DNA from: Chthoniobacterales bacterium
GTDB lineage: Bacteria; Verrucomicrobiota; Verrucomicrobiia; Chthoniobacterales; UBA10450
DNA length: 64,000 nt
Direction of reading: 5' to 3'
Assembly (NCBI GenBank): GCA_003244145.1
Contig: QHBM01000024.1
Span: 1-64,000, forward strand
Shown here piece by piece: positions 7,708 to 18,237 of this stretch. Every line of letters starts with the position of its first letter. The first letter of the stretch is position 1. A program made the position numbers and the translations under genes. The notes beneath the pieces are model-generated. The model was not told the origin of the DNA and made no database searches. It was given only the letters and a program-made list of their open reading frames with translations.

Positions 7708-8931
7708 TCAGCGCCTGGACGCCGGAGCGGGCGCTATCGGCACTCCCGCTTCGTCCACTTCAATGATCCGAATCGGTTCCGGAATATTTAATTTCAGTCC
7801 CGACGGAGTCTGTTCGCGAGCCGCGCCGCGGCCGCGCTGAATCAAGTCCAGCTCGCGCCGCATCTTGCCTTTGTTCGTGCACGAGCTCATTGCGGTTTCT
7901 TCACTGACGATGCCCGCTTTGTAGGCCTCGATGATCGATTGGTCGAACGTATGCCAGCCGAGGGTCGATCCCGCTTCGATTATTTCCTGGAACGATTTGT
8001 TTTCCGATTCGCCGTAAACAATCGTTTCGCGCGTGCGCAGGCTGCTCCCCATGATCTCGGTCACGAGCAAACGGCCGCCGTCGATTTTGTTCACCAACCG
8101 CTGACTAATGACGTAACGCAACGTCTCGGACAGGCGCTGGCGAAGCTGCTGTTCCTCCTCGCGCGCGAACATTCCCAGAATCCGATTGATGGTTTGGCCG
8201 GCATTGATCGTGTGGAGCGTGCTGAAAACAATGTGGCCGGTTTCCGACGCAGTCATCGCGATCTCGAGCGTTTCGCGATCGCGAATTTCGCCGACCAGAA
8301 TGGCTTTCGGCGCCTGCCGCAACGCCGCCCGCAAACCGTCGGCGAAGTTTGGAAAATCATTGCCGAGCTCGCGCTGGCTGATCGCGCCCTTGCCGTGCGG
8401 ATGAAAAAACTCGATCGGATCCTCCAGCGTGACGATGTGGATCTCCTGGCTCTGATTCAATTCGTTCAGCATCGCGGCCAACGTAGTGGTCTTGCCAGTG
8501 CTGGTCCCGCCCGTCACCAGGATGATGCCGTTTTTCTCTTTGACGATTTCCCGAAAGATGGGCGGCAGCGCCAGTTTCTCGAGCGTCGGAATTTCCGATT
8601 GCATCTTCCGCATCACGATGGCGTGGCGGCCATTCTGTTTGAAAATGTTTACGCGGAAGCGGGCCAGATTTTCAATCACGTAACTGCAATCGCAGGAGCC
8701 GGTGGCGGAAAATTCCACCCGGAGCCGTTCGCTTCCGTTCATGATTTGGCCGGCGAGCTGTTCGATGAGCTGCGGCGTGAGCACGGGTTCGGGCGGGTCG
8801 ATGGCGAAAGGACTCAAGCGGCCGTGGACTTCGACCAGGGGCGGTTTGTCCGAGATAAAAAGCAGGTCCGAGACGCCCTCAGCGCTCCCGAGCATACCCG
8901 TCAGCAATGCATCAATGCTCTGGCGATCCAT
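7708..8931 (-). CDS. PilT/PilU-like type IV pilus retraction ATPase
   Basis: A 407-aa hexameric secretion-type ATPase. An N-terminal PAS-like domain (SDLLFISDKPPLVEVHGRL) precedes the RecA-like core. The Walker A motif is GGTSTGKTTT (141-150), where PilT normally has GPTGSGKSTT. The Asp box (TLEDPIEF), Walker B (AILVGEIRDRET) and His box (HIVFSTLHTINA) are present. The C-terminal 60 residues (KGKMRRELDLIQRG and on) extend past the PilT core and resemble PilU-type tails. No pilin or pilQ genes are adjacent, and the nearby T2SS genes lack a local gspE, but the AIRNLIRE-like retraction features make PilT/PilU likelier than GspE. Confidence 0.82.
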   Translation of the reverse strand: MDRQSIDALLTGMLGSAEGVSDLLFISDKPPLVEVHGRLSPFAIDPPEPVLTPQLIEQLAGQIMNGSERLRVEFSATGSCDCSYVIENLARFRVNIFKQNGRHAIVMRKMQSEIPTLEKLALPPIFREIVKEKNGIILVTGGTSTGKTTTLAAMLNELNQSQEIHIVTLEDPIEFFHPHGKGAISQRELGNDFPNFADGLRAALRQAPKAILVGEIRDRETLEIAMTASETGHIVFSTLHTINAGQTINRILGMFAREEEQQLRQRLSETLRYVISQRLVNKIDGGRLLVTEIMGSSLRTRETIVYGESENKSFQEIIEAGSTLGWHTFDQSIIEAYKAGIVSEETAMSSCTNKGKMRRELDLIQRGRGAAREQTPSGLKLNIPEPIRIIEVDEAGVPIAPAPASRR

Positions 8932-8995: not shown

Positions 8996-10102
8996 TTACG
9001 GAACGGTCTCCAACTGCTCCACGATCCGCGCGTCCGGAGCGGGCTGAGGCGTCTCTTCGAACTCCGGCGGCAAACCGCGCAAATGCCTGGCTCCATAATA
9101 GGAGCCGACCACCACGATCGCGGCGACACCCTGGGCCAGCAGCGTTTCGTAAGTTGGGAAAATCGCGAACCACATTCCGACCCAGGCCGGCAGGATGTTG
9201 ACCAGCCACGGAATTTCTGTGCGCGAAATCCAATGGGCCAATTGCATTTCCTGCGCTTGTTCACCCACCATCACGAGCAAGACGACGCCTAGCAGAATGC
9301 CGGTCGTGATCAGCATTTTCCGATAGGGAAGACGTTGCTGGAGCACAAACGTCAGCACCGCGACCATTCCCGAAAGCAAGAGACCGAGGAGCGCGCCTTT
9401 CAAAACGACACCGCCGCCCAGGCGCAACTGGTAGCTCTGCAAAAAGAGGACGACTTCGAACCCTTCGCGATAGAGCGAGGTGAATCCGAGCAGGACCAGT
9501 CCCCACCACAAACGCGAGTGGGTCGATCTGCGTCCATTGGCCAGCAGCGTTTTCCGCCGCCGGTTATGCGCGCGAATCCAGCCGCCCCAGTAAATCTTGT
9601 GGAAAAACCAGTTCATGATCACGAGCAAGACCACCACCGCCAGCAGCCCGGTGGCCGCCTGGAGATCGAGCGCCGGCACGCTCTCCATGAGCGATCCGAG
9701 AATCCGCACCGCGATTAACCAGGTGATCAACGTCGCGCCGAAGGCGACCCCGGCGCCCACCGCCACGGGACGGCGATGCGCCTGCTTCGTCCCGGTCATG
9801 CTCGCGGTGATGGCCGCCAGGACGAGAATGCATTCGAGACCTTCCCGGAAAACGAGCACGCCGATATCGAGAAACGCGACGGTCGAGCTGGTATTGGGCC
9901 GCAACGGATCGGGCGCGCCCTTTTCGGTCAGGCCCTGCCAGATCAGGACCGCCACCACAGCCGCGGCGGCGACACAAAGGATGGCCGCGATCATCCCCGA
10001 CCGGCGTCGCGTGACAGCGCGGGCGGTGCGACAATGGGGCGAGCAAGGGTCGGGAGTTGCCTCGACCGTTTCGGGCTTTGCCGCCGGCATGATTCCCTTC
10101 AC
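8996..10102 (-). CDS. FTR1-family iron permease
   Basis: A polytopic membrane protein of 368 aa with two copies of the iron-binding REGxE motif: REGLE in VFREGLECILVLAAI and REGFE in YREGFEVVLFLQSYQ. This duplication is the hallmark of the EfeU/Ftr1 family, which moves iron across the inner membrane. A cytoplasmic N-terminus with HCRTARAVTRRRS precedes the first helix. The C-terminus is polar (PPEFEETPQPAPDARIVEQ). No EfeO or EfeB partner is adjacent, so the electron or iron donor is unclear. Confidence 0.85.
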   Translation of the reverse strand: MKGIMPAAKPETVEATPDPCSPHCRTARAVTRRRSGMIAAILCVAAAAVVAVLIWQGLTEKGAPDPLRPNTSSTVAFLDIGVLVFREGLECILVLAAITASMTGTKQAHRRPVAVGAGVAFGATLITWLIAVRILGSLMESVPALDLQAATGLLAVVVLLVIMNWFFHKIYWGGWIRAHNRRRKTLLANGRRSTHSRLWWGLVLLGFTSLYREGFEVVLFLQSYQLRLGGGVVLKGALLGLLLSGMVAVLTFVLQQRLPYRKMLITTGILLGVVLLVMVGEQAQEMQLAHWISRTEIPWLVNILPAWVGMWFAIFPTYETLLAQGVAAIVVVGSYYGARHLRGLPPEFEETPQPAPDARIVEQLETVP

Positions 10103-10523: not shown

Positions 10524-10997
10524 ATGCGTCGCGACCAGGGCTTCACGTTGATCGAGATGGCGATTGCCGTCGTGATCATGGTCGTAATCATGATGCTCGC
10601 GGTGCCGAGCATTAACGGAGTCCTTGCTGATCGGCGCCTGCGCCGATCGCTCGATGAATTCAACGGCCTCGTCCGCAAGGCCCAGGAACACAGCATCGCT
10701 GAGCGCCGCGCTTACCTCATCACCTGGAACAACGGCAAGATCGGCCTGCGCCCCGAGGGTCTGCTCAAGGGAGAAGATCCGGCGCCGGTGGCGACGCTGA
10801 AGTTGAGCCGGGACGAATCTTTCAGGCTCTCCTTTCCGGCGGCGCTGGAAAACGAGCCGCCTCCAGAATGGATTTTTTGGCCATCGGGTAATTGTGAGCC
10901 GGCCGTGGTGACCTATCGCGGAAAGGACGGCGGCTGGACGGCAAGATATTCGGCGCTGACTGCGCGCGCCGAACTCGCAAATTATGTCACGAAGTAA
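10524..10997 (+). CDS. gspH: type II secretion minor pseudopilin GspH-like
   Basis: 157 aa with a class III signal: MRRDQG then FTLIEMAIAVVIMVVIMMLAVP, cleavage expected after Gly with Glu at +5. The hydrophobic helix is followed by the GspH-like region RLRRSLDEFNGLVRKAQEHSIAERR and a beta-rich C-terminal part. It is the first gene of a tightly packed series in which neighbours overlap by 4-20 bp, in the order expected for T2SS minor pseudopilins (H-I-J-K). Confidence 0.85.
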   Translation: MRRDQGFTLIEMAIAVVIMVVIMMLAVPSINGVLADRRLRRSLDEFNGLVRKAQEHSIAERRAYLITWNNGKIGLRPEGLLKGEDPAPVATLKLSRDESFRLSFPAALENEPPPEWIFWPSGNCEPAVVTYRGKDGGWTARYSALTARAELANYVTK

Positions 10998-11385
10998 GCG
11001 CCGGCGAAGAGCGTTCGCGCTCTACGAAGTTCTTCTCGGCCTCACGATTTTTGTCGTGGGAGTTTTCGCGCTTGGGCGCTCGGTGGAAAATTGCCTGAAC
11101 GCCAGCGCCCTCAGCTTTGAAGATGACCGCGTCCGCCAAGTCCTGGCGAACCGAATGGCGGAAATCCAGGCGACGCCCGGTTTTCCCGACGCCAAGAAGG
11201 AAACGAAAGTGGCGACCGGTTACGGCGAGGTGACGTTGACTCAACGAAGCGTGCCGGCGGGATTGAAGGACGACAAGGATGTGGAAATGAACGGCATCAA
11301 TCGAGTGACGTTGCAGGCGGAGTGGCGGCGCCAGGGCGTGGCCCAATCGAGGAAGATCGAATTCTATGTTTACCGCCAGGGTTAG
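10984..11385 (+). CDS. gspI: type II secretion minor pseudopilin GspI-like
   Basis: 133 aa. The prepilin-type N-terminus is RRRRA then FALYEVLLGLTIFVVGVFALG, with Ala instead of Gly before the presumed cleavage point and Glu at +5. The segment NRMAEIQATPGFPDAKKE matches the GspI layout (LAxNxxxE after the helix). It overlaps gspH by 14 bp and gspJ by 20 bp, indicating translational coupling. Identification rests on the motif and on its position between H- and J-like genes. Confidence 0.8.
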   Translation: MSRSKRRRRAFALYEVLLGLTIFVVGVFALGRSVENCLNASALSFEDDRVRQVLANRMAEIQATPGFPDAKKETKVATGYGEVTLTQRSVPAGLKDDKDVEMNGINRVTLQAEWRRQGVAQSRKIEFYVYRQG

Positions 11386-11995
11386 GCGAAATCGGCGCCG
11401 GGGATTTACGCTCCTCGAGATCACGCTCGCCGCGGCCATTCTTGGGTTGATGTCGCTGGCGGTTTACCGTTTTGTGCAGTCGAACATCATCAGCCTGCGA
11501 CTCTCCTCCGAGCAAAACGTGGACGAGGCGCGCTACTCGGGGTTGCTCGATCTGCTCACGGCCCAATGGCAGAACCTTCCGATCGGAACTGGATCGCTCG
11601 GGGGCGAGCCGTTCAAGTTCAACGACCGGTCGCGTGATGAGATCGTCTGGATGTGCGGAGCGGGGCCCGGACTTCTGACGCGCTACGCCGGCGGCGAGTT
11701 TTCCGTGCGGATGCGATTGACGCCGATGAAAGGGAGCGGCGATAAGATGCAACTCGGATTTCTGCGACGGCCGCGCGAAACGGCCGAGGGCTCGAGCGAG
11801 GGTGAAACGTGGGTGCCGCTGATCGATGATGTGCGGGGAATGCGGATTCGCTACTTCGATGTGAGGTTGAATGCGTGGACGCCACGGTGGACCGATACCC
11901 TATCTCTGCCGCGCCTCATCGAGATCACTCTCGAGCGGCCGGGGCGGCCGAACTGGCAGGCCATCGTGGCACTGGGCCGCACTCCTTGGCAATGA
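11366..11995 (+). CDS. gspJ: type II secretion minor pseudopilin GspJ-like
   Basis: 209 aa with prepilin signal RRRG then FTLLEITLAAAILGLMSLAVY. The body has the GspJ-like features FVQSNIISLRLSSEQNVDEARYS and a WVPLIDDVRGMRIRYFD region, which in GspJ precedes the final beta strands. Its stop overlaps the gspK start in an ATGA arrangement (11992-11995). Confidence 0.82.
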   Translation: MFTARVRRNRRRGFTLLEITLAAAILGLMSLAVYRFVQSNIISLRLSSEQNVDEARYSGLLDLLTAQWQNLPIGTGSLGGEPFKFNDRSRDEIVWMCGAGPGLLTRYAGGEFSVRMRLTPMKGSGDKMQLGFLRRPRETAEGSSEGETWVPLIDDVRGMRIRYFDVRLNAWTPRWTDTLSLPRLIEITLERPGRPNWQAIVALGRTPWQ

Positions 11996-12957
11996 ACGAC
12001 CCACGCAAATCTTTGGCCGCGCTCGCTGATCGCGGAACCTTCGCGATCCGATCGAAAAAGCGGTGCGGCGCGGCCATCATGCTTTCGCTTTGGGCCCTCT
12101 TTTTGCTCAGCGCCATGGTGATTTCGTGGGCGCTGGATATCGACACGCGCCTAACTAATTCCGGCAGCGCCAATCGAACTCTCGAGGCCGAAGCAATGGC
12201 TTGCTCAGGCGCCGAAATCGCAATGCATCCGCTTGTGAAGCCGGGCTCGTCTCTGCTCCACGGAACATTTGCGGCCAACCAAAGCTTTGAGGCTCGCATC
12301 ACCGGCGAAGGAGGACGCTTGAACTTGAACTGGCTGACTCAGATGCCGGAAACCCAACACCTAGAGCGGATAGAGCTGTTACGAAAATATCTGGAAGTCA
12401 AAGGCGTGGATCTGAACGAGCGCGACCATATGATCGATTGTCTGCTCGATTGGGTTGATCCGGATAATCTCGTCCGGCTCAACGGCGCGGAAGAGGAGCC
12501 GGGTTACAAGCCGGCCAACAAACCGCTCGGCAGCCTCGAGGAGTTAAAGAGGGTTCGCGGTTGGACTGATTTTACCTCGACGCCCGATTGGGATGCCGAT
12601 CTGACCTTGGTGAGCGCAGGCCAAAAGATCGATATCCGGTGGGCCTCGCGTGACGTTCTGCTTGCCTTACCTGGAATGACCGAAGGTCTCGCGGATCGGG
12701 TTCTTACTATACGCCGAGGACCAGATGGCATTGATGGAACGGAGGACGACGGGATCAAAACGCTCGTTGAGTTCTGGGTTGCGCTCGGAATTAGGCCGGA
12801 CCAAAATCCAGCGCTTGCTTCTCTCGTGGGGGACACCGATCCAGTGGTGCGGATAGTCAGCATCGGAAAATCGGGAAGCGTTACACGGACTGTGCGAATG
12901 GTGGTCAGCGGCAAATATCAAAATGCTATTCAATTGAAATTCTGGAAGGAGTTTTGA
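11992..12957 (+). CDS. gspK: type II secretion minor pseudopilin GspK
   Basis: 321 aa from the ATG at 11992, in a four-base ATGA overlap with gspJ. GspK caps the pseudopilus tip. The N-terminus has a basic segment and the helix IMLSLWALFLLSAMVISWALD, without Glu at +5, which is usual in GspK. Family hallmarks follow: GEGGRLNLNWL, IDCLLDWVDPDN, then a helix-hairpin-helix-like segment DVLLALPGMTEGLADRVLTIR. The frame is open further upstream (from 11875), but that part overlaps gspJ and is not coding-like. Confidence 0.88.
   Translation: MNDPRKSLAALADRGTFAIRSKKRCGAAIMLSLWALFLLSAMVISWALDIDTRLTNSGSANRTLEAEAMACSGAEIAMHPLVKPGSSLLHGTFAANQSFEARITGEGGRLNLNWLTQMPETQHLERIELLRKYLEVKGVDLNERDHMIDCLLDWVDPDNLVRLNGAEEEPGYKPANKPLGSLEELKRVRGWTDFTSTPDWDADLTLVSAGQKIDIRWASRDVLLALPGMTEGLADRVLTIRRGPDGIDGTEDDGIKTLVEFWVALGIRPDQNPALASLVGDTDPVVRIVSIGKSGSVTRTVRMVVSGKYQNAIQLKFWKEF
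12946..12951 (+). promoter_or_regulatory. Shine-Dalgarno site that fixes an unusual gspL start
   Basis: AAGGAG lies inside the end of gspK. Seven bases after it comes ATC (12959-12961), in frame with gspL. The next usual start codon, GTG at 13016, has no comparable site and would remove a segment that reads as protein (KRIYIIPAANGWNLV). Confidence 0.5.
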
Positions 12958-12958
12958 C

Positions 12959-14194
12959 ATCGAGCCGGCAACGAAACGCATCTACATAATCCCGGCCGCC
13001 AATGGCTGGAACCTGGTGCGCTTCGCGGAACACAGCGGCGCCTGGGAAGTGCGCGGATTGGCCGGCCTCGAGGAAGCGGCGGAGCTGCTGCGGCCGGAGG
13101 ATGATATCGTTCTCGCTCTGCCGGTCGATCTTGTCCTCGCGCAACGTCTCCGTTTGCCCACGACGGATCCGGGGGAGTTCGCCGACATGGTCCGCATCCA
13201 GATCGAGAAGGCCATGCCCTACTCGACCGAAGAAATGACGACCGATTCGGAAATCATTTCGCAAACTGAGGAGGGCAGCATCATTTCCGCCGTCGCGGTC
13301 CACAACGAGAAGTTGTTCCAACTCGCGTCGCCGCTGATTTCGCGCGGCCTTATTCCCAGTCAGGTCACGGTCTATGCCGGAGCGCGCGCGGCGACCCATG
13401 CTGCTCGCGAAACCGCGCTGCTGATTTATCCCGAGAACGAAGCGATCGTTTGTGTCATTACCGAGGAAGGCAAAGTCAGCTTCACCGGCACCCTCGAGTC
13501 GGCGGAGCCATGGCAACTCCAGCGCGACCTGCCCCAACTCGCCCTGAGCGCGGAGTTGCAGGGGATCAACACTTCCTCGCCCCAAATCCTGCTAGACGAG
13601 AGTTTGTTCGCGCTCCGCGACACCGTGGAGGGAATTTTTGCGACCTCCGCTGAGCTCATCGCGGTGGAAGTGCCGCCGTCGGAGACCCGGTTGAATCTTC
13701 TGCCCGCGAGCTGGCGTCATCGCCGGGAACAACTCGTTAGGCAAAAGGAATGGCGGAAACGGCTCCTCGTGGCCGGCTGCGCCTATGCGGGTCTACTCCT
13801 GCTTTTTTTTGCCTATCTTCTGATCCTGCGGTTCCAGATCGGGCGGCTGGATAAGAAGATCAAGAACGACACGCCGCGGACCGAATTCGTCAAAGCGACC
13901 GAGGCGCGCTGGAAGGCGCTCGCGCCCGCGATTGATCCGCATTATTACCCAATCGAGGTGATCCTCCACCTTTTCGACAGCCTGCCCTCGCAGGATGTCC
14001 GGATCACGGTTTTCAATCAATCGGCCCGGCAGATTTCGGTGGACGGCGAAGCGAACTCCGCCGCGCTCGCCTATCAGTTTGCCGACAAGGTGAAGAAGAA
14101 CCCGGACCTGCAAACATTTCAGTTCGAGCTGGGCGCGCCGCGCATTCTGCCTAACGACCACGCCCAATTTCGCCTGGAAGGGAAACCGAGATGA
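12959..14194 (+). CDS. gspL: type II secretion GspL-like (actin-like/PilM-type) protein
   Basis: Inner-membrane assembly platform protein linking the cytoplasmic ATPase to the periplasmic parts. From the ATC at 12959 the product would be 411 aa; from GTG at 13016 it would be 392 aa. The cytoplasmic part (to about residue 260) is actin-like, similar to GspL/PilM (LALPVDLVLAQRLRLP, DMVRIQIEKAMPYS). One membrane helix follows (LLVAGCAYAGLLLLFFAYLLIL), then a ferredoxin-like periplasmic domain. It overlaps gspM by 4 bp. No AUG is available between the in-frame stop at 12935 and 13016. A sequencing error in the start codon is an alternative. Confidence 0.78.
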   Translation: MEPATKRIYIIPAANGWNLVRFAEHSGAWEVRGLAGLEEAAELLRPEDDIVLALPVDLVLAQRLRLPTTDPGEFADMVRIQIEKAMPYSTEEMTTDSEIISQTEEGSIISAVAVHNEKLFQLASPLISRGLIPSQVTVYAGARAATHAARETALLIYPENEAIVCVITEEGKVSFTGTLESAEPWQLQRDLPQLALSAELQGINTSSPQILLDESLFALRDTVEGIFATSAELIAVEVPPSETRLNLLPASWRHRREQLVRQKEWRKRLLVAGCAYAGLLLLFFAYLLILRFQIGRLDKKIKNDTPRTEFVKATEARWKALAPAIDPHYYPIEVILHLFDSLPSQDVRITVFNQSARQISVDGEANSAALAYQFADKVKKNPDLQTFQFELGAPRILPNDHAQFRLEGKPR

Positions 14195-14736
14195 TCCCCG
14201 CTTTCTACCAACGAATGAACCCGCGCGAGCGCATTCTCGCCGCGATCGTGGCCGGCGTGATTTTTTTCCTGCTCAACTTCTACATTTGGGGCAAACTTTT
14301 CGGCACGTTGCAGCAGGCGCGCGTCGATCTGGCGGCGCGGGAAGCGACTCGGAACGCGCAGAACGTTTACATCAAGGAGCGCGATCTCTGGACGAAGCGC
14401 GCGAAATGGCTCGATCAGCACCAGCCGGTTCTCAAGAGCCCGGGCGAAGCGTCCACCCTGCTCGACCAGGTCAAACAGATTGCTGGCAAGCACAACGTGC
14501 TGCTCGAAAATCCGGCCATCGGGGTAAGCGACGCGACGCGCGATCACCAGTCTGTCTTCGCGTCGATCGAAACGAAAAGTCCCTGGCCGCCGCTGGTGAA
14601 ATTTCTCTACGACGTGCAGCAACCTGAATCGTTCGTCGTCTTTGAAAACGTCACGCTCGCGATCGACCCGGCCGACCCGACCCAGATGCGCGGGAAGTTC
14701 AAGGTCGCGCGCTGGTTTGCGCCGGCCGGAAAATAA
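14191..14736 (+). CDS. gspM: type II secretion GspM-like protein
   Basis: 181 aa: a short cytoplasmic N-terminus (MNPRERILAAIVAG), one membrane helix (VIFFLLNFYIWGKLFG), a coiled-coil stretch (TLQQARVDLAAREATRNAQN) and a periplasmic ferredoxin-like domain. This is the GspM/PilO layout. It follows gspL with an ATGA overlap, as GspM does in T2SS operons. Confidence 0.78.
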   Translation: MIPAFYQRMNPRERILAAIVAGVIFFLLNFYIWGKLFGTLQQARVDLAAREATRNAQNVYIKERDLWTKRAKWLDQHQPVLKSPGEASTLLDQVKQIAGKHNVLLENPAIGVSDATRDHQSVFASIETKSPWPPLVKFLYDVQQPESFVVFENVTLAIDPADPTQMRGKFKVARWFAPAGK

Positions 14737-14794
14737 TGTATGCCATGTTTCGAACGAAGAGACTCCGAGCAGAGTCTTGTATTAAAGTGACTCG

Positions 14795-15430
14795 ATGAAA
14801 GCGATGAATCCGAAAAATCTTTCCGCGCTCCTTGTCCTCCTGGGTCTTCCCTTCGGCGCGATAATGGCGGACGACGTGCCGAAGGCATTCAGCTTCGCTC
14901 GTTACCAGGGAATGCTGGATCGCTCGCCGTTTGCGGTCGCGACCGCGGTGGCGGCGCCGGCAGCTACGCCGAATTTCGCCAAGGACCTTTACATCGCCAA
15001 TGCGGCGCACTCGAAGGACGGCGACCTGGTCACGGTCGCCTCGAACGCCGACAAGAACTTCAAGAGATACCTGACCACCGCCGCGCCCGTGGATGGATAC
15101 AGCATTACGAGCATTGAGTGGTCGGAAAAAGTTGGCGCCACCAAAGTCACGATCACGAAAGACGGACAGACTGCGACGCTGGCATTCAATGAAGCGCTCT
15201 TGCGCCAACCGATCGCCAGCGCGCAAAATCCACCCGCGGTGGCGAACTTTGTTCAGCCGCAGCCAGTAGTTCCGCAGCCGGGGAACGCTATGCCGCAGCA
15301 GCCGAATGTGCAGAGGCCGATGCAGGTGCCGATGTTACCCACGCCGCCGCCCCGAGTCCGCGGCGTCATTCCGCGGAATCCGACGTACGTGCCACCGACC
15401 CCGGTCCCGACGCCCGAAGTGGAATTGTAA
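14795..15430 (+). CDS. exported proline-rich protein, possible GspC/PilP-type component
   Basis: 211 aa. The N-terminus MKAMNPKNLSALLVLLGLPFGAIMA is a signal peptide or single anchor. Residues 75-135 (DLYIANAAHSKDGDLVTVAS ... GYSITSIEWSEKVGATKVTI) form a small beta-rich domain that could correspond to the homology region of GspC/PilP. The C-terminal 80 residues are a Pro/Gln-rich tail (QPQPVVPQPGNAMPQQ, PPTPVPTPEVEL). It is the last gene of the + T2SS unit, 58 bp after gspM. I infer a GspC-like role from position; sequence similarity is not decisive. Confidence 0.55.
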   Translation: MKAMNPKNLSALLVLLGLPFGAIMADDVPKAFSFARYQGMLDRSPFAVATAVAAPAATPNFAKDLYIANAAHSKDGDLVTVASNADKNFKRYLTTAAPVDGYSITSIEWSEKVGATKVTITKDGQTATLAFNEALLRQPIASAQNPPAVANFVQPQPVVPQPGNAMPQQPNVQRPMQVPMLPTPPPRVRGVIPRNPTYVPPTPVPTPEVEL

Positions 15431-15463
15431 AAAAGCCGCGCCGAAATCTATCGGCCGCGCGGC
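15429..15463 (-). terminator. intrinsic terminator of the gspF-gspG unit
   Basis: Read on the minus strand, just after the gspG stop, GCCGCGCGGCCGA and TCGGCGCGGC form a GC-rich stem with a small bulge, followed at once by TTTTTT (complement of 15429-15434). In the + direction the same stem lacks a T-tract, so it is better suited to the minus-strand operon. Confidence 0.7.
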
Positions 15464-15465
15464 GA

Positions 15466-15876
15466 TTAGTTGCCCCAATCGTCGTCCGCGGTATCGGCTT
15501 TGCGATCCGGCCCGGCGGAATAAAGATCGTAGCTTGAGGGATTCTTCCGGCCGGGAGAGAGATAGATGTAGTTACTGCCCCAGGGATCTTTTGGAACTTC
15601 CTTGAAGAGTGAGTACCAGCGCGTCGGCTTCGGTTCCGTCGTAGGTTGCGTGACGAGGGCCTGGAGACCTTGTTCGGTCGTGGGCAGAAATCCGTTCATG
15701 CTTTCGTAAAGTTTGAGCTGCGTGGCGATCGCCTGGACGTCCGCGCGCACGGCGATGCCTTTGGCGACGCCGGTCGTGTTTCCGAGCTTGTTGATGGCCA
15801 CGCCCAGGAGAATGACGATGATGCTAATCACCAGCATGATTTCCAGAAGAGTGAAAGCGCCTTGTCGTTTTTTCAT
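15466..15876 (-). CDS. gspG: type II secretion major pseudopilin GspG
   Basis: 136 aa, the standard GspG length. The leader MKKRQGA is followed by FTLLEIMLVISIIVILLGVA (Glu at +5; Ala rather than Gly directly before the cleavage point). Family marks in the body are RADVQAIATQLKLYESMNGFLPTTEQGLQAL, DPWGSNYIYLSPG and YDLYSAGPDRKADTADDDWGN, the last being the calcium-binding C-terminal loop. It starts 6 bp after the upstream gene and is followed by a good terminator. It lies on the strand opposite the other pseudopilin genes. Confidence 0.95.
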   Translation of the reverse strand: MKKRQGAFTLLEIMLVISIIVILLGVAINKLGNTTGVAKGIAVRADVQAIATQLKLYESMNGFLPTTEQGLQALVTQPTTEPKPTRWYSLFKEVPKDPWGSNYIYLSPGRKNPSSYDLYSAGPDRKADTADDDWGN

Positions 15877-15882
15877 TCGCGT

Positions 15883-16947
15883 TTAACGGTCGGTTTGGAG
15901 TTGGTAATCGGTTTTGTCCCAGAGATATTTCAACTGGATCTGGGTGGCGCGAATCGCCGAGGCCGGCGTCCCCGCGCCGCCGATAATGAGAACGTCGTTC
16001 GTCCCGACCTTCAGGTTGGCGGCCGGGACCAATTTCTGGGCGCGGAGCCAGCCGGTATATTGAAAGCGCATCGGCCTAACGAGTGAAGCGGCCTCGCCGC
16101 GGTAAGCGGGATCGGCCAGGTCGGGCATGGTCAGCGCGACTACGCCAACGCTCTCGCCATTAACGAAAACTTCCGGCGGCGATTCGATATTCGGGCTGGC
16201 TACTTCGAAGCTGAGCAAGGCCATGAGCGGTTGGGATTCGAGACCGAATTGAAAGGCCGCGCCTTGCTCCACGCTCGCGCCGATGCGGATCGTCTCCGGC
16301 GCCAGCGAGGCGGTGACGGTGCCAAGCCTTTCGCTATCCTGAACCGGCGCGTGCAGCGGCGACATCGCGGCGAACGGTTCCGGAATGAGGTCGCGATGTT
16401 CCGCGCTGATCGGATGGAGCACTTCCGCGCTCGCCATCCAATCCAGATATGCGCCTCGAATCGTCTTTCCGTCGCCGGGTACTTCCACGTCGATGGTCGA
16501 GACACCTACCATCGGCACCATGATGCTTTCGGAGGTGGGCAGATTGATCCCGGAGCCGAGCGGACCGGATTGCATCACCACCGTTCCCGATTCATCCCAA
16601 GCGATCAGGCGCGGCTTTTGTTCGGGCTTGTCGTCGAAAAATAAACGGAAGAACAAGACTTGGAAATCCGCTTTCGGGCGGTTGAGCCGGATGCGAAAAA
16701 CGGTTTGGGCAGCGACGCCGGGGGCGGTGGTCGAAGGAACGATCGAAACGGCTTCCACCCAATCTGGCGTGGCCTGCGGTTTGGAATTGGCCGCGGCGGT
16801 TTGGCGCAGATCGAGCCAGGCGCTTTCGAAATTGCTGCCGGTCGGTTTCGGGGCCTTGTCGGGAAGCGCGTCGGACAGGATGTCCTGGCCGCGCGTCGAA
16901 GGTACCGCGAGCAAGAGGAGAGAAAACGCGATAACCCGAAATAGCAT
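15883..16947 (-). CDS. exported protein of unknown function inside the T2SS locus
   Basis: 354 aa with a cleavable signal peptide (MLFRVIAFSLLLLAVPSTRG). No known domain recognised. The sequence looks beta-rich with few charged helices (FRIRLNRPKADFQVLFF, EVFVNGESVGVVALTMPD, VGTNDVLIIGGAG), which could be one or two jelly-roll or Ig-like sandwiches. It sits 18 bp after gspF and 6 bp before gspG, so it is co-transcribed with core T2SS genes. It could be a lineage-specific periplasmic component or a secreted substrate. Confidence 0.7.
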   Translation of the reverse strand: MLFRVIAFSLLLLAVPSTRGQDILSDALPDKAPKPTGSNFESAWLDLRQTAAANSKPQATPDWVEAVSIVPSTTAPGVAAQTVFRIRLNRPKADFQVLFFRLFFDDKPEQKPRLIAWDESGTVVMQSGPLGSGINLPTSESIMVPMVGVSTIDVEVPGDGKTIRGAYLDWMASAEVLHPISAEHRDLIPEPFAAMSPLHAPVQDSERLGTVTASLAPETIRIGASVEQGAAFQFGLESQPLMALLSFEVASPNIESPPEVFVNGESVGVVALTMPDLADPAYRGEAASLVRPMRFQYTGWLRAQKLVPAANLKVGTNDVLIIGGAGTPASAIRATQIQLKYLWDKTDYQLQTDR

Positions 16948-16965
16948 GGACGGCGCGAGCGTAGC

Positions 16966-18237
16966 TCAGTGCGGCCGAAACTGCAAACTATGCGTCATCT
17001 CGAAGACGGCGGAGAGAATGCTGTAGACGACGAAGCCGACCACGATCGCGATCAAGACAATGATGACCGGGGGCACCAGGGCCGAGATGGTGTTCACCGT
17101 GCGATCCAATTCGCGTTCGTAAACGTCGGCAATGGTCTGCATGGTCCGGGCGAAGTGACCGGTCTGTTCGCCCACCGCCATCATGTCGGTAAACAAATCG
17201 GGAAAAAGTTTTTGCGCGCTTAGCGCCGTCGAGAGCGTGGCCCCATCGATGACCGCGCGGCGCACTTCCGCCAGTTTGATTTCGAGATATCGGTTGTCGG
17301 CGATTTCGCTGACGAGATCGATCGCTTTGAGGAGCGGAATTCCATTTTCCATCAACGTCCCCAGAGTGCGCGAAAACTGCGCGTAATACCTGTGGCGCAG
17401 CACGCGTCCATAGCCAGGAATAACCAGGCGGAATCGGTCCCAGGCGATTCTTCCTTCATCGGTCCGAACGAAAGCGCGGAAGCCAATCACTCCAACGATC
17501 GCCAGGACGATCGCGACCCACCAATAACTAGTGATGAGGTTGTTCGCGCCGAGCAGGATTCTCGTCGGCAACGGAAGCGTGCCGCCGTTCTGCGACATGA
17601 ACCCGACCAGTTGCGGCACCATGAAGGTAATGAAAACCGTGATGAGACCTGCTCCCGCGAGGGCGAGGAACGCGGGATAAATCAGCGCCTGCTGCACGCG
17701 GTCGCGCAGGTTCTTCGACTGCATCAGGTGCTCGACCAGTCGCGCCAGAATATCCGGCAGCGCGCCGCTCGCTTCGCCGGCCGCTACTAGGTTCACATAG
17801 ATCGCCGGGAAAATCCGCGGGAAATCCCGCAACGCCTGGGAGAAACTCCGGCCGTCGACGAGCGCTTGATGAAGCGCGTGTGTCATCTGCTGGACGCGCG
17901 GTTGTTTGAGGCGCTTCTCCAGGACCGACAAACCTTCATCGAGCGTCATCCCGGCCTGGAGCAGGTGACCGAGTTGTTCGGTAAAAATGAGCAACTGTCC
18001 GTGCGGGATTTTTAGTTTTTGCGTTGGGGCTGCGGGCGCCGGGGCCGCGGCGGCAACGGCAGCGCCATTCTTGCCGCCTTTCGCCGCAGGCGGTTCGGTC
18101 CCGACGGCATCGATGCGCACGGGAATGTAATTCAATTGCTCGATTTGCCGGATCGCTACGGAGCGATCGGGGCAATCAAGCACCCCTTCGACCAGACCGC
18201 CCTGAGCGTTGCGTGCGCGATAGGAAAATTGTGGCAT
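16966..18237 (-). CDS. gspF: type II secretion inner-membrane platform protein GspF
   Basis: 423 aa. The N-terminus MPQFSYRARNAQGGLVEGVL is the family signature. A low-complexity Ala/Pro linker (about residues 55-80) separates it from two GspF domains: LLIFTEQLGHLLQAGMTLDEGL ... IYPAFLALAGAGLITVFI, then AQFSRTLGTLMENGIPLLKAIDLV ... ALVPPVIIVLIAIVVGFVVYSIL. It begins the minus-strand T2SS unit. No gspE or gspD lies in the window, so those must be elsewhere or supplied by another ATPase. Confidence 0.92.
   Translation of the reverse strand: MPQFSYRARNAQGGLVEGVLDCPDRSVAIRQIEQLNYIPVRIDAVGTEPPAAKGGKNGAAVAAAAPAPAAPTQKLKIPHGQLLIFTEQLGHLLQAGMTLDEGLSVLEKRLKQPRVQQMTHALHQALVDGRSFSQALRDFPRIFPAIYVNLVAAGEASGALPDILARLVEHLMQSKNLRDRVQQALIYPAFLALAGAGLITVFITFMVPQLVGFMSQNGGTLPLPTRILLGANNLITSYWWVAIVLAIVGVIGFRAFVRTDEGRIAWDRFRLVIPGYGRVLRHRYYAQFSRTLGTLMENGIPLLKAIDLVSEIADNRYLEIKLAEVRRAVIDGATLSTALSAQKLFPDLFTDMMAVGEQTGHFARTMQTIADVYERELDRTVNTISALVPPVIIVLIAIVVGFVVYSILSAVFEMTHSLQFRPH

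Follow-up and report, generated by a model that had tools for sequence, protein, structure and literature searches.

A predicted tandem jelly-roll protein encoded beside gspG in a type II secretion lineage of Verrucomicrobiae

Introduction

What does a putatively exported protein do when its gene stands between two genes of a type II secretion system (T2SS) and belongs to no named family? The question is raised by a 64,000-nt window of contig QHBM01000024.1 from a Chthoniobacterales bacterium (the window is this whole stretch of DNA). There, a T2SS locus is laid out in two convergent units, gspH-I-J-K-L-M-X211 on the plus strand and gspF-X354-gspG on the minus strand. X354 and X211 are our labels for two unnamed proteins of 354 and 211 amino acids; G, L and C numbers are our handles for genomes, loci and contigs. 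An earlier note on this DNA had put X354 forward as a candidate new component of the machine or as its main substrate. T2SSs are known mostly from Proteobacteria. X354 is apparently a real, conserved and undescribed gene of this known machine. On balance, we think it probably encodes a dedicated accessory periplasmic component of one Verrucomicrobiae T2SS lineage rather than a secreted protein that acts on its own. It would perhaps serve as a cell-wall glycan adaptor, with X211 as a putative GspC that lacks the PDZ domain.

Results and Discussion

X354 keeps its place beside gspG

We searched 58 related genomes with the X354 sequence and the same genomes with PF08334 for gspG. A homologue of X354 was found in 51 of them, with a single match in 49 and two pieces of a broken copy in the other two (G014 and G029). 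A strong gspG (PF08334 E<=1e-15) was present in 50 of the 58 relatives, and 49 of these 50 also carry X354 (48 by sequence search, with G042 added by profile); neither search recovered X354 in the fiftieth, G047. Among the eight relatives without a strong gspG, X354 was found in three (G030, G032 and G040), all cut by contig ends, and in none of the other five. In G014 and G029, both metagenome assemblies, X354 is split over two frames (L060:8801-9831 and L061:1510-2567), through either sequencing error or decay.

Gene order was read from 80 named loci, recovered by a pattern scan limited to close relatives and labeled Verrucomicrobia, Spartobacteria, Chthoniobacterales, Udaeobacter and, once, PVC group. 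Nearly all of them come from metagenome assemblies, and they overlap with the 58-genome set and are not an independent sample. An X354 frame was called in 78 of these loci; in the remaining two, just the C-terminal end of X354 is present ahead of gspG. In 76 of the 78, gspG lies 3' of X354 with a gap of at most 363 bp, and the other two end at contig edges. The gspF gene precedes X354 in 71 of the 78 loci (six are contig-cut and one has no gspF) and is not beside it in several other families. Thus, the constant pairing with gspG and gspF that the earlier note had raised holds nearly throughout for gspG and less widely for gspF. Within the stretches of three loci (L042, L044 and L045), gspF and gspG, with X354 between them, are the only gsp genes seen. 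Over the whole locus collection, duplicates included, 169 of 189 X354 frames have gspG on their 3' side. X354 is a single-copy gene with a fixed place 5' of gspG, and its identity to its relatives falls in the range of gspJ, gspK and gspL.

This linkage could in principle be an accident of vertical descent, with X354 as a passenger gene. The named loci all belong to Verrucomicrobia or the PVC group, linkage is heritable, and some T2SS loci of the lineage lack X354, all of which would fit a passenger. However, X354 and gspG are adjacent in loci of 19 family labels, and the pair has outlasted the rearrangements that scattered gspF, gspH to gspM, gspD and gspE. It is also kept between X354 proteins sharing as little as ~20% identity. 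We regard the passenger explanation as very improbable.

X354 follows one T2SS lineage

A search of the class matched TIGR01710 at E<=1e-10 in 163 of 188 genomes. We chose 40 regions around these gspG genes by hand, 39 of which were usable; X354 was called in 11 of the 39 and lay directly 5' of gspG in all 11. A tree was then inferred from six concatenated Gsp proteins for 61 of 84 candidate loci, each of which had to contain gspG, gspK and two or more of gspH, gspJ, gspL and gspM; the window itself was left out and its genus was included. One split with a support of 1.000 separates 46 loci, 37 of which have X354 in the locus, from 15 loci that all lack it. Three of the nine X354-less loci on the first side come from genomes of the order that retain X354 apart from the gspG contig (G042, G514 and G331, where it stands beside gspE). 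X354 is co-inherited with the T2SS, and together with its linkage this gives good support to the earlier proposal of a new component.

We extended the search to the phylum with a profile of X354. Matches were found in at least 16 of 387 genomes, a lower bound, with at most five candidates scored per genome. In five of the 16, all from beyond the class, the match falls mainly on the C-terminal domain. Two of these (G315 and G285) carry fusions of the second X354 domain to a Kelch propeller, recognized by Pfam in L105 (7960-9582) and by similar sequence in L107 (4091-5956). X354-like repeats occur in G122 and in G318 (contig-cut), at L108:8735-11233 and L104:1-1503, and a short form stands at a contig end in G365. 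Seven neighbors scanned in G122, G315 and G318 belonged to ordinary metabolic or transport families or had no match. Since these other-class homologues lie away from recognized T2SS genes, the second domain is older or more widely used than its T2SS role.

Predicted fold of X354

X354 has no Pfam or NCBIfam match and no PDB sequence relative at E<=10. Scanning 43 members singly against Pfam returned five families, each in one or two members and at E 0.025 or worse. An AlphaFold2 (AF2) model built from these 43 sequences (pLDDT 81, pTM 0.75) is unreliable at residues 16-39 and nearly all beta thereafter. It predicts two tandem jelly-rolls, with helix limited to an N-terminal helix and short helical turns. 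No profile match was detected between the two domains (hhalign probability <1%), and we rejected an internal duplication. All 43 sequences agree in seven alignment columns (F104, N263, P275, G299, W300, G315 and N317); these residues may be structural.

With VIA-align, the best match of the C-terminal domain was the cellulose secretion protein BcsB (9fmt_B; Z 10.7, rmsd 3.4 A, 115 residues, 18% identity), above the background of the tool. The aligned region is BcsB residues 69-207 (Z 10.6-10.7 over 115-116 residues at 18-19% identity), which we take to be its first carbohydrate-binding domain. Below it came chains of GH86, CBM35 and CBM6 at Z 8-10. For the N-terminal domain, the matches were CBM6, other CBM-type and meprin chains at Z ~8, near the background of the tool for models without a clear match. 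Foldseek placed a surface glycan-binding protein B of B. thetaiotaomicron first and BcsB second, both with low whole-chain TM-scores. The earlier note had suggested comparing the predicted structure with GspC: the best VIA-align match, that of the C-terminal domain, is BcsB, and the GspC-type likeness falls to X211 instead. We rejected X354 as a GspC, whose slot in the gene order is occupied by X211. A lipoprotein or pilotin was likewise rejected, with no Cys in X354 and a lipobox-like match in 3 of the 43 members.

X354, whose export is probable from its signal peptide, and BcsB would be alike in being beta proteins that are exported and associated with an export machine of the envelope. BcsB has alternating alpha-beta domains, a C-terminal membrane anchor and bcsA beside its gene. 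In contrast, the X354 model is all-beta without a C-terminal membrane anchor, its neighbors are T2SS genes, and none of the 43 members matches the BcsB family of Pfam (E<=0.1). Both X354 domains also resemble CBM6 and CBM35 (Z ~8-9), but X354 is not part of an enzyme, these matches are near the background of the tool, and a sugar site is putative. The fold matches show a fold and not a function, the jelly-roll being common.

These folds also bear on the main rival explanation, in which X354 is the conserved main cargo of the T2SS: sharing a transcript with the major pseudopilin, it would be secreted as a lectin of two domains or as a glycan-binding protein of the surface. Secretion as a lectin would agree with a signal peptide followed by carbohydrate-binding-type folds, Foldseek ranks a surface glycan-binding protein of Bacteroides highest, and genes adjoining the machinery can encode cargo. 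However, T2SS cargo genes are usually scattered and lineage-specific, whereas X354 stays in single copy 5' of gspG across the 19 family labels and is retained after the locus has broken up. A component is more likely than a cargo, although no computation separates them decisively; the main substrate of the earlier note is the less likely alternative. A periplasmic assembly factor for GspG and GspF is less probable again. As such a chaperone or scaffold, X354 would use its jelly-rolls for protein contacts and bind no glycan. Its tightest genetic tie is indeed to gspG and the fold alone does not imply sugar binding, but carbohydrate-active or carbohydrate-binding proteins account for many of the listed fold matches, and a protein-binding surface finds no support in sequence or structure.

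A possible role in the cell wall

As an accessory component, X354 would be exported by Sec and would lose its signal peptide; we infer its export and periplasmic site. The jelly-roll pair would then work in the periplasm beside the pseudopilus and the inner-membrane platform, a location suggested by the adjacency of the gene to gspG and gspF. By holding an envelope glycan, either a peptidoglycan strand or a sugar of the outer membrane, one or both jelly-rolls might fix the machine in the wall or steer it there, with X211 bridging GspL/M and GspD as a PDZ-less GspC. The adaptor hypothesis arises because T2SS helpers bind peptidoglycan and X354 has two domains of sugar-binding type; glycan binding and docking to the wall are speculative. 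PMC9239104 describes OutB/GspB, GspA and the SPOR domain of LspD as binding peptidoglycan, GspA as a membrane ATPase with a peptidoglycan-binding domain, and GspB as mostly carrying a homology region (HR) domain. The likeness of X354 to GspA and GspB (OutB) concerns the proposed role of seating the machine in the wall and is not a claim of homology: X354 differs in being a predicted soluble tandem jelly-roll. The most specific form of this proposal is tentative and somewhat doubtful. It holds that these Verrucomicrobiae have their own T2SS lineage, in which a periplasmic glycan-binding tandem jelly-roll ties the GspG pseudopilus or platform to the wall, beside a PDZ-less GspC.

Several observations weigh against an accessory glycan adaptor. 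Most gspG genes of the class come without X354, as in the chosen regions above, and X354 is found in one of the 30 best-scoring gspG loci, which is the same locus as L249. Six of the 46 loci on the X354 side of the tree lack it (L231, L240, L241, L242, L244 and L252). Whole-genome profile searches found no X354 in G526 and G485, the genomes of two of these six, and the genomes of L231, L241 and L242 (G242, G230 and G267), all covered by the phylum search, are not among its 16 listed matches. Since loci of the same lineage and the whole genomes of G526 and G485 lack X354, the gene is dispensable in some relatives and can be lost. Furthermore, no T2SS gene was recognized near the X354 homologues of the five other-class genomes in the stretches examined. 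Homologues commonly found away from T2SS genes were what the earlier note expected to count against a component; this is borne out in part, by these five genomes and by the three of the order in which X354 is off the gspG contig. Most CBM matches (Z ~8) are near the background of the tool, and a jelly-roll, being a common fold, frequently has a protein as its ligand or no ligand at all. Finally, neighborhood alone cannot tell a component from a co-encoded substrate.

X211 occupies the GspC slot

X211 consists of a small beta domain (residues 57-140) followed by a Pro-rich tail. Its AF2 model (pLDDT 75, pTM 0.45) has no helix or strand in the tail. Structures of T2SS or type IV pili (T4P) took ranks 1-7 and 9-11 among the matches of the domain (Z 6.7-3.9; PilP, GspC, PulC, LspC, GspB, a machine model of type IVa pili (T4aP) and a PilQ complex). 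These include 3oss_C GspC (Z 6.7), 3jc8_Pa of the T4aP machine model (Z 6.7), 2lc4 PilP (6.0) and 6hcg_e PulC-HR (5.7). All Z-scores are below 8, Foldseek returned nothing at E<=0.001, and none of 41 members matched a GspC or PilP family of Pfam, with five unrelated families each hit in one of the 41. The set of leading matches is nevertheless specific, and the model weakly resembles the homology region of GspC and PilP. In loci with an unbroken cluster (e.g., L048, L049, L099 and L237), the X211 gene has gspM on one side and gspD on the other; in the family of the window, gspD has moved away. Unlike GspC, X211 has no C-terminal PDZ or coiled-coil, the Pro-rich tail standing there in the model, and its lack of Cys rules out a PilP-type lipobox. 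Its hydrophobic N-terminus could be a membrane anchor or a signal peptide. X211 is also found in T2SS loci without X354 (L231, L241, L242, L243, L244 and L252). The Pro-rich GspC/PilP-like protein that the earlier note placed at the end of the plus unit is therefore backed by its position and weakly by its fold, and it carries neither PDZ nor lipobox.

The convergent layout is a rearranged form

The split into two convergent units, as first described, is real. Many other families of the order and class present the order X354-G-H-I-J-K-L-M-X211-D in one direction, sometimes with gspF before and gspE after, and L099, from another order, reads F-X354-G-H-I-J-K-L-M-X211-D-E in a single direction. 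The two-unit form is found throughout the family of the window where contigs allow a view, and also in L047. Because the one-direction cluster occurs in other families, including L099 of another order, the convergent layout is derived. A terminator had been proposed where the units meet. A hairpin followed by a U-run does exist there, on the minus strand, and would end the gspF-X354-gspG unit. Its signal is weak relative to shuffled sequences: at -18 kcal/mol (z -1.9) it was equaled by 11 of 200 shuffles, and such sites are no commoner in the region than in shuffles (9 found vs 10.9 expected).

Composition of the locus

All genes of the earlier list lie where stated and on the stated strands, as do the gaps of 18 bp between gspF and X354 and 6 bp between X354 and gspG (Table 1). 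The major pseudopilin is of GspG type (TIGR01710 over its cut-off). GspF, the minor pseudopilins H-K, GspL and GspM are all present, with F, J and K over cut-offs and the rest assigned from sub-threshold matches and their fixed order; gspH, gspI, gspL and gspM were named by best match and gene order. Candidates for GspD and GspE and a prepilin peptidase are encoded in the same genome. As a T2SS, the locus would secrete folded proteins.

Table 1. Features of the T2SS locus and adjoining genes (positions in the window)
Feature	Position	Strand	Basis or remark
PilT/PilU-type retraction ATPase gene	7708-8931	-	TIGR01420 over cut-off
FTR1-type iron permease gene	8996-10102		Beside the cluster
gspH, minor pseudopilin	10524-10997	+	Best family match, below equivalog cut-off
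gspI, minor pseudopilin	10984-11385	+	TIGR01707 E 0.003 only; position between gspH and gspJ
gspJ, minor pseudopilin	11366-11995	+	PF11612 over Pfam cut-off
gspK, minor pseudopilin	11992-12957	+	PF21687 over Pfam cut-off
gspL	12959-14194	+	Weak PilN/PilM-type matches below cut-offs, and position; start read as ATC
gspM	14191-14736	+	NF040576 3.4e-7 and T2SSM_b 0.007, both below cut-offs; position
X211, Pro-rich, GspC slot	14795-15430	+	Gene order; AF2 fold; residues 57-140 = 14963-15214
Hairpin and U-run, candidate terminator of gspF-X354-gspG	15429-15463	-	Overlaps X211 stop codon; weak
gspG, major pseudopilin	15466-15876	-	TIGR01710 116 bits vs cut-off 88.85; PF08334 over Pfam cut-off
X354, putatively exported protein of 354 aa	15883-16947	-	Open reading frame; homologues; adjacency; AF2 model
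X354 C-terminal jelly-roll (predicted), ~residues 205-344	15916-16335	-	AF2; like BcsB residues 69-207
X354 N-terminal jelly-roll (predicted), ~residues 40-172	16432-16830	-	AF2; CBM-type and meprin matches, Z ~8
X354 Sec-type signal peptide (putative), ~residues 1-20	16888-16947	-	Judged by eye
gspF, inner-membrane platform protein	16966-18237	-	PF00482 4.7e-53, over Pfam cut-off; TIGR02120 best family, below cut-off

The earlier note had reported gspD and gspE as missing locally. Both are indeed absent from the locus, and the assembly (88% complete, with 3.6 Mb in 173 contigs) has candidates on contig C105, for which type_II_gspD and type_II_gspE are the best families, both below equivalog cut-offs. 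A prepilin peptidase (Peptidase_A24) is on contig C78. The genome encodes several PilT-like and GspE/PilB-like ATPases and three secretins, and the assignment of the C105 pair to this locus is inferred from relatives. In all 15 genomes of the window's family that were searched, all draft assemblies, the gspD homologue and X354 are on different contigs. One correction concerns the ATPases: a gene for a retraction ATPase of PilT/PilU type lies near the pseudopilin cluster. T2SSs are normally without a retraction ATPase, and one is within reach in 8 of the 80 named loci. An FTR1-type iron permease gene adjoins the cluster as well, with FTR1 called in 41 and gspH in 57 of the 80 named loci. Copies of gspG vary in number in two relatives: three stand in tandem in G005 (L069:7757-9422), and G035 has one full and one partial copy.

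A probable ATC start codon of gspL

In the window, gspL is read from an ATC (12959-12961), 7 nt after GGAAGGAG (12944-12951), and no ATG, GTG or TTG occurs from the in-frame stop to residue 20 (open frame before 13016). We surveyed 68 distinct loci of relatives for the first in-frame ATG, GTG, TTG, ATC, ATT, ATA or TTC that lies at a distance from a GGAAGG-like motif suited to a start codon. ATC was found in 53 loci, ATG in 7, ATT in 3, GTG in 1 and TTC in 1, with no such codon in 3. These loci are related by descent, and no probability is attached to the counts. Codons 2-8 are variable within the 53 ATC loci, and ATC makes up 651 of the 1171 internal Ile codons of gspL (429 are ATT and 91 ATA). 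A standard start is lacking both upstream in the open frame and within the first 19 codons in 27 of the 53 ATC loci, and the other 26 have one. From these sequences, gspL appears to begin at a conserved AUC initiation codon, which may set the dose of GspL. It is unusual for a bacterial family to keep an AUC start codon.

A programmed gspK-gspL frameshift was also considered. The sequence there includes CTT TGA, which we take to resemble the prfB site. The frameshift was rejected because many relatives have 1 nt between the gspK stop and the ATC and others have 2 nt, so that the ATC is kept in differing relative frames; a fusion would also place the cytoplasmic GspL domain in the periplasm.

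Implications

The titles and abstract openings of open-licence papers described no jelly-roll T2SS part and no verrucomicrobial T2SS locus, an absence that carries little weight. In its predicted small beta domain X211 weakly resembles the GspC homology region and PilP, its gene stands in the GspC position between gspM and gspD, and it differs in having no PDZ, no Cys, no Pfam match and a Pro-rich tail instead. This suggests that the GspC bridge can do without a PDZ domain. Denise et al. (2019, PMC6668835) set gspC as mandatory in T2SS detection models; with a PDZ-less protein in the GspC slot, such models may undercount systems of the X211 type. X354 is a conserved and linked gene with a product that lends itself to structural interpretation, it comes from an abundant phylum of the soil, and it is a candidate T2SS part outside the usual list. 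It bears on the way in which the T2SS traverses and is held in the cell wall, and on the variation of the system in other phyla. If X354 does tie the machine to the wall through a glycan, glycan-binding folds would be common to two unrelated export machines, the T2SS here and cellulose secretion in the case of BcsB.

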